Positions 17,271 through 54,175 of a DNA stretch of 64,000 nucleotides are shown here, one piece after another. Position 1 is the stretch's first letter; each line of letters starts with the position of its first letter. Origin of the DNA: Candidatus Methanosuratincola subterraneus. Lineage in GTDB: Archaea; Thermoproteota; Methanomethylicia; Methanomethylicales; Methanomethylicaceae. The notes below the pieces were generated by a model. That model had not been told where the DNA came from. It did not search any database and was given only the letters and a program-made list of their open reading frames with translations. A program made the position numbers and the translations under genes. The stretch covers positions 1 to 64,000 of the forward strand of contig RXGA01000004.1 in assembly GCA_004028775.1 (NCBI GenBank), written 5' to 3'.

Positions 17271-17366
17271 TGGTAGCGGGGGGTGGATTTGAACCACCGA
17301 TCTCGGGGTTTCTCAACCGACGGGGCTTATGAGCCCCGCGGGATAACCTGGCTACCCCACCCCGCT
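17271..17366 (-). tRNA. Initiator tRNA-Met(CAT) with an 18-nt intron
   Basis: The body AGCGGGGTGGGGTAGCC with A1-T72, an anticodon stem of GGGG/CCCC and encoded CCA marks the initiator. The anticodon arm reads CGGGG-CTCATA-[intron]-A-CCCCG. The intron is 17310-17327, between positions 37 and 38. The splice region forms a textbook bulge-helix-bulge: central helix CTCA/TGAG with 3-nt bulges TAA and AAA and an inner GCC/GGT helix. Cutting at the usual sites restores the 7-nt loop CTCATAA. Confidence 0.95.
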
Positions 17367-54039: not shown

Positions 54040-54175
54040 GCGGGGATTCCCAAGTCAGGACAACGGGGCAGGACGCCGAGAGGCGTGCCAGACTTAAGAT
54101 CCGGGCTTGGTAGCCTTCGGATGGGTTATCCTGTGGCGAAGGCCTTCGTGGGTTCAAATCCCACTCCCCGCACCA
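54040..54175 (+). tRNA. tRNA-Leu(TAA) with two introns
   Basis: The ends GCGGGGA and TCCCCGC plus CCA, a D arm CCC/GGG, a long variable arm (GGC-GAAG-GCC) and T arm GTGGGTTCAAATCCCAC define a class II tRNA-Leu. The anticodon arm is split twice. Intron 1 (54073-54091, 19 nt) lies between positions 30 and 31, with BHB helix GGCA/TGCC, bulges GGA and AGA, and a CGCC-GAGA-GGCG hairpin. Intron 2 (54099-54127, 29 nt) lies at the canonical 37/38 site, with helix CTTA/TGGG, bulges AGA and TTA and a TCCG/CGGA, GGCT/AGCC hairpin. Removing both gives CAGGA-CTTAAGA-TCCTG, a perfect arm. Confidence 0.92.

Follow-up and report, generated by a model that had tools for sequence, protein, structure and literature searches.

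The window analysed here comprises 64,000 nucleotides of Candidatus Methanosuratincola subterraneus (contig RXGA01000004.1, positions 1 to 64,000), a member of the archaeal class Methanomethylicia, formerly Verstraetearchaeota. Alongside archaeal rRNAs and RNase P, it carries a class II tRNA gene, tRNA-Leu(TAA), which by direct reading occupies positions 54040–54175 of the forward strand and is interrupted twice. Direct reading together with ARAGORN on the intron-free sequence places the 5′ exon (tRNA nucleotides 1–30) at 54040–54072 of that strand, where it contains the acceptor 5′ strand, the D arm and the first 4 nt of the anticodon stem. Running ARAGORN on the joined exons then delimits two further forward-strand segments. 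The middle exon (54092–54098, nucleotides 31–37) reads A31 C32 T33 TAA G37, with the anticodon at 54095–54097. The 3′ exon (54128–54175) supplies nucleotides 38–73, including the discriminator A at 54172, and ends in an encoded CCA at 54173–54175. Removing both introns in silico leaves 88 nt, encoded CCA included, which ARAGORN identifies as tRNA-Leu(taa) with an intact anticodon stem and the loop CTTAAGA. The initial annotation had predicted this restored stem and loop from introns of 19 nt at 30/31 and 29 nt at 37/38, and its coordinates proved exact. The gene is poorly served by standard tools. With both introns present, ARAGORN called no tRNA on it, its intron option included; with one intron left in, the tRNA was still found as a single-intron form. 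The RF00005 model returned only a misaligned 16.5-bit match. Several orthologues do not encode CCA at the corresponding position (ACCT, ACTA), so encoding of the 3′ CCA is variable within the family.

Intron 1 (ACGCCGAGAGGCGTGCCAG, 19 nt, 54073–54091, forward strand) lies at 30/31, inside the anticodon stem, and is defined by the sequence and by covariation among orthologues. Its inner helix is CGCC/GGCG with a GAGA loop. The 5′ strand of its central helix, G25 G26 C27 A28 (54067–54070, forward strand), is kept in orthologues and pairs with TGCC at 54086–54089; G25 doubles as the 3′ end of the D stem. Bulges of 3 nt each, G29-G30-i1 and i18-i19-A31, flank the central helix GGCA/TGCC, so that central helix, both bulges and inner helix are all complete. 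The outer helix consists only of G24-C32 and G23-U33, which use D-stem bases for which the D stem competes. A strict hBHBh′ motif requires a stable outer helix, and that of intron 1 has a low folding probability; we therefore class the motif as relaxed (HBh′-like) rather than strict. The central helix itself reaches only moderate probability in the folding model.

The position of intron 1 is fixed by comparison. In the window, splice registers 29/30, 30/31 and 31/32 all yield the same mature RNA. Registers 29/30 and 31/32 could be ruled out because flanking bases differ in orthologues, and three of these (L008, L010 and L004) keep the stem paired only with 30/31. All 28 distinct orthologous introns have standard pairs at the first three positions of the inner helix, built from 3, 5 and 5 pair types, whereas shuffling expects about 2 of 28 introns with three such pairs. 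Given these compensatory pair types, the hairpin of intron 1 is not a product of chance. Conservation of the central helix is no independent test, since the search pattern included that helix.

Intron 2 (ATCCGGGCTTGGTAGCCTTCGGATGGGTT, 29 nt, 54099–54127, forward strand) occupies the canonical 37/38 position according to ARAGORN, RNAfold and the orthologues. Its central helix joins CTTA on the C32–A35 side (54093–54096) to TGGG (54122–54125) and includes two G-U pairs, and its inner helix joins TCCG (54100–54103) to CGGA (54118–54121). Like intron 1, it has the archaeal bulge-helix-bulge (BHB) arrangement, with a 3-nt bulge on either side of a 4-bp central helix. Its outer helix is provided by the anticodon stem, and this stem is interrupted by intron 1. 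Sequence and fold model agree that the two introns are nested, the intron-2 motif being complete only once intron 1 is gone. The initial annotation had described complete BHB motifs at both introns. This stands for the central helices, inner helices and bulges, but the outer helix of intron 1 is weak and that of intron 2 conditional. A C/D-box guide within intron 2 was considered and set aside, as 29 nt is too short and no C or D boxes were seen by eye.

We found that this locus is the only source of tRNA-Leu(UAA) detected in the genome. The remaining four Leu genes have the anticodons CAA, CAG, TAG and GAG, the last assigned by direct reading where ARAGORN calls Phe, and a scan of the genome for a Leu(TAA) gene that was intronless or had a shorter intron 2 came back empty. 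TTA accounts for 91 of 11,643 codons (0.8%) in 28 long open reading frames of the window. With TTA codons in use and no second Leu(TAA) gene, the gene looks essential. It is hardly credible that it is instead a decaying pseudogene, with the true tRNA-Leu(UAA) elsewhere or missed by the assembly. Standard finders did overlook the gene and the assembly is about 97% complete, but the mature tRNA is perfect after intron removal, the introns covary, the gene is conserved across the family and the genome yielded no second copy, on which grounds we rejected this reading. An alternative intact gene, which the initial annotation had named as the circumstance that would demote this one, is thus not in evidence.

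Several observations concern other tRNA genes of the same genome. ARAGORN marks 17274–17366 of the window (reverse strand) as '???'; the sequence resembles a Met(CAT) tRNA that bears an additional hairpin, TCGGTTGAGAAACCCCGA, close to the variable region; this hairpin is probably a non-canonical intron. A tRNA-Val(CAC) gene that ARAGORN mis-folds (L115, G000:C6:51252-51384) likely has an intron near the junction of D stem and anticodon stem. Two tRNA-Ser genes (L112 and L113, G000:C6), with anticodons CGA (called Ala by ARAGORN) and TGA, have a near-identical 37/38 intron in common. Finally, the intron of a tRNA-Lys(TTT) gene (L101, G000:C6:481264-481390) contains GAGACC, complementary to GGTCTC in the variable loop and T stem, possibly by chance.

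An intron within the stem was expected to need a splicing endonuclease of relaxed specificity, and the genome encodes a suitable candidate. It has two EndA homologues in separate genes, a catalytic alpha and a non-catalytic structural beta, both of which score above the cut-off of the NCBIfam EndA equivalog model. The alpha protein (185 aa) is closest to Aeropyrum pernix EndA alpha (E=1e-48) and retains the motifs VYEYG, HAPF and VRKK with the catalytic Tyr, His and Lys. Its K41-P42-K43 aligns with the A. pernix loop K44-P45-R46, which has been shown to matter (PMC12397907). The beta protein (178 aa) reads KEPAKYLV at the catalytic His site and thus has no His there. Judged by these features, the predicted endonuclease is of the (alpha-beta)2 type and carries the crenarchaea-specific K-P-K loop of broad-specificity enzymes. 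EndA of this type has been linked to non-canonical and multiple introns (PMC4033280, PMC4090602), and the predicted enzyme would be expected to cleave non-canonical introns here.

We consider it highly probable that the locus encodes a functional, essential tRNA-Leu(UAA) whose two nested BHB introns are spliced sequentially by an (alpha-beta)2 endonuclease. We infer the excision of both introns, its order and the ligation of the exons. In the pathway we propose, the endonuclease, with its broad-specificity loop, would cut intron 1 at 30/31 first, accepting a relaxed motif. Joining of the exons, a step performed in archaea by RtcB, would rebuild the anticodon stem and with it the outer helix of the intron-2 motif. 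The canonical 37/38 intron would then be cut and the exons joined to give the mature tRNA. That the order of excision matters, since the anticodon stem is intact only after removal of intron 1, had been proposed from the start; the sequence and the folding model point the same way.

The distribution of the two introns was surveyed with the 136-nt gene as query against 41 genomes, followed by pattern scans. The two-intron gene is present in 15 of 22 family genomes, that is, in all 15 from which the gene was recovered; in the other family genomes, most of them incomplete assemblies, it was recovered in no form. This comparison bears out the same two introns throughout the 15 family genes and supports the 30/31 register. 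Three genomes of the same class from two sister families (G022, G023 and G039) have intron 2 without intron 1. In one scan of named genomes, the intron-1 form was found in Methanomethylicota, Bathyarchaeota, a Njordarchaeum, Micrarchaeota, one Woesearchaeota genome and others. When 398 genomes of the phylum were scanned, matches to the pattern were confined to this family and a single genome outside it, although that pattern requires TGCCANACTTAAGA, so variants are missed. Two further arrangements of tRNA-Leu(UAA) were observed: four genes from Bathyarchaeota and the Njordarchaeum (L030, L035, L038 and L052) carry, in addition to the introns at 30/31 and 37/38, an apparent third one in the D arm, and five from Micrarchaeota (L031, L040, L046, L049 and L051) have the 30/31 intron alone, without a 37/38 intron.

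The minimum-energy fold of the precursor (RNAfold) contains a relation on which the initial annotation was silent. The D-arm segment CCAAGTC-A-GGA at 54050–54060 pairs through 10 bp with the segment TCC-G-GGCTTGG in the 5′ part of intron 2 at 54100–54110, which is antisense to it; both are read on the forward strand. The same register recurs in orthologues, as TCCCTGACTTGGG in L014 and L016, TCCGACTTGGG in L013, TCCCGGCTTGGG in L011, TCCATAGGCTTGG in L010 and TCCGACTTG in L008, and wherever it is kept the base facing U16 is A or G, either of which pairs. The register is shifted in L015 and mostly lost in L018. At 37 °C, antisense pairing of about 9–11 bp dominates 11 of the 12 modelled family precursors, with L018 the exception (6.7 bp), and at 55 °C it contributes −1.3 to −6.4 kcal/mol in family precursors. 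Compared with shuffled introns, the duplex energy gave p values of 0.000–0.08 in 14 of 15 genes and 0.25–0.92 in five controls, and shuffling of the loop only within whole precursors gave 0.00–0.05 in 10 of 11 testable orthologues, against 0.45 or more in controls; because the family sequences share ancestry, these values are not independent. With a D arm that is almost invariant across the family, true compensatory changes cannot be counted.

Outside the family the picture differs. The antisense contribution is essentially 0 in G022, G023 and G039, in two Bathyarchaeota-type genes and in the Leu(CAA) intron of the same genome. Introns similar to intron 1 occur in Bathyarchaeota and Micrarchaeota without the antisense segment. 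A general tendency of this genome's introns to pair with the D arm was discarded as an explanation, as 12 other intron-bearing tRNAs are mostly near zero, a few reaching 1–2.6 kcal/mol and none behaving like the present gene. The pairing is thus a lineage-specific feature. In the open-access literature we found no archaeal tRNA intron described as pairing with the D arm, a weak negative.

The pairing could well be an inherited coincidence without a role, a reading we stop just short of calling probable. The order of splicing would then follow simply from the need of intron 2's outer helix for intron 1 to be gone, and nested introns are known to be ordered with no such device (PMC3978253). About 8 nt suffice for the pairing, which probably had a single inherited origin; L018 does without most of the segment and other lineages with intron 1 do without it altogether. 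In Methanosuratincola, GGCT could also be conserved through its pairing with AGCC in an apical hairpin within intron 2. Coincidence sits less easily with the CTTG core, which 14 of the 15 family genes retain even as the remainder of the loop varies in length, sequence and structural context, with the 11-nt perfect complement in L014 and L016, or with relatives without intron 1, which show no such pairing.

Folding models of the precursors suggest what a role might look like. By nearest-neighbour energies, which leave out tertiary contacts, modifications and protein, the full window precursor prefers the antisense fold by 5.8 kcal/mol (37 °C) or 3.7 kcal/mol (55 °C); without intron 1, this preference drops to 1.9 and 0.3 kcal/mol. 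In the 55 °C window model, removing intron 1 raises the intact anticodon stem from 0.00 to 0.61 and the intron-2 inner helix from 0.00 to 0.63, and reduces antisense pairs from 9.7 to 3.5. The antisense pairing excludes intron 2's own motif because both need TCC and the pairs cross. It also occupies the 5′ strand of the D stem, leaving G23–G26 free for the intron-1 motif. In L014 and L016, deletion of intron 2 lowers the modelled central helix of intron 1 from 0.83–0.92 to 0.02–0.05.

These shifts in anticodon stem and helix, together with the effect of deleting intron 2 in L014 and L016, are consistent with a switch that causes intron 1 to be removed first. Intron 2 might thus act as an intramolecular folding switch that chaperones the removal of intron 1 and enforces the order. 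Its antisense segment would open the D arm so that the intron-1 motif can form, the same pairing would hide intron 2's own splice motif, and removal of intron 1 would tip the balance to the tRNA fold, releasing the antisense. We put this forward tentatively and regard it as possible but doubtful. Antisense pairing persists after loss of intron 1 in L008, L013, L014 and L016, where at 55 °C it is still favoured by about 2–5 kcal/mol, and little of it is left in L018. In other lineages, a similar intron 1 is presumably spliced with no such pairing, and compensatory changes are lacking, with the D arm hardly varying.

The D stem is almost absent from the model of every full family precursor and is back in several once intron 1 is removed. 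This behaviour and the pairing data would also accord with quality control, whereby the antisense blocks a tRNA-like fold and end processing, modification (for example, of G15) or charging must wait for splicing. We think this unlikely: the single-intron Leu(CAA) precursor of the same genome lacks such pairing, so the role would have to be special to the two-intron gene.

Sequential splicing of nested introns, our preferred account of the gene, has precedent. Multi-intron archaeal tRNAs, with up to three introns, are established, and nested, order-dependent introns are already known (Sugahara 2007 and Tocchini-Valentini 2009, as cited in PMC3978253). The multi-intron pre-tRNAs of Thermoproteales and others described there likewise combine one non-canonical intron with one at 37/38, and their last motif can form only once the other intron has gone. 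The present gene differs in its clade, Methanomethylicia, and in an intron 2 that can pair with the D arm. The tRNA-Leu(UAA) of Caldiarchaeum subterraneum, reported in PMC3293823, is the same isoacceptor with more than one intron. The split tRNA-Lys(CUU) of Nanoarchaeum and Staphylothermus (PMC3218864) also has a BHB processed at exactly 30/31 in the anticodon stem, but it is a different tRNA, trans-spliced from halves through a canonical hBHBh′ motif. The euryarchaeal tRNA-Trp intron with a box C/D guide (PMC4090602) similarly takes a second maturation role by pairing with its own tRNA; the 29-nt intron 2, in contrast, has no visible C/D boxes, and the role proposed for it is folding order, not modification. 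With multi-intron tRNAs, 30/31 junctions and forced order all in the literature, the core of the initial annotation is right but not new in kind, and the two-intron arrangement is ordinary for archaea, known but uncommon.

Together, these results extend well-supported 30/31 anticodon-stem introns to Methanomethylicia. Families with and without intron 1, and with and without the antisense segment, form a natural series on how removal of multiple introns is ordered. A cultivated relative, M. petrocarbonis LWZ-6, grows best at 55 °C (PMC12244365), which makes two-intron splicing testable. If the proposed switch is true, a tRNA intron would take part in the splicing of the intron next to it.
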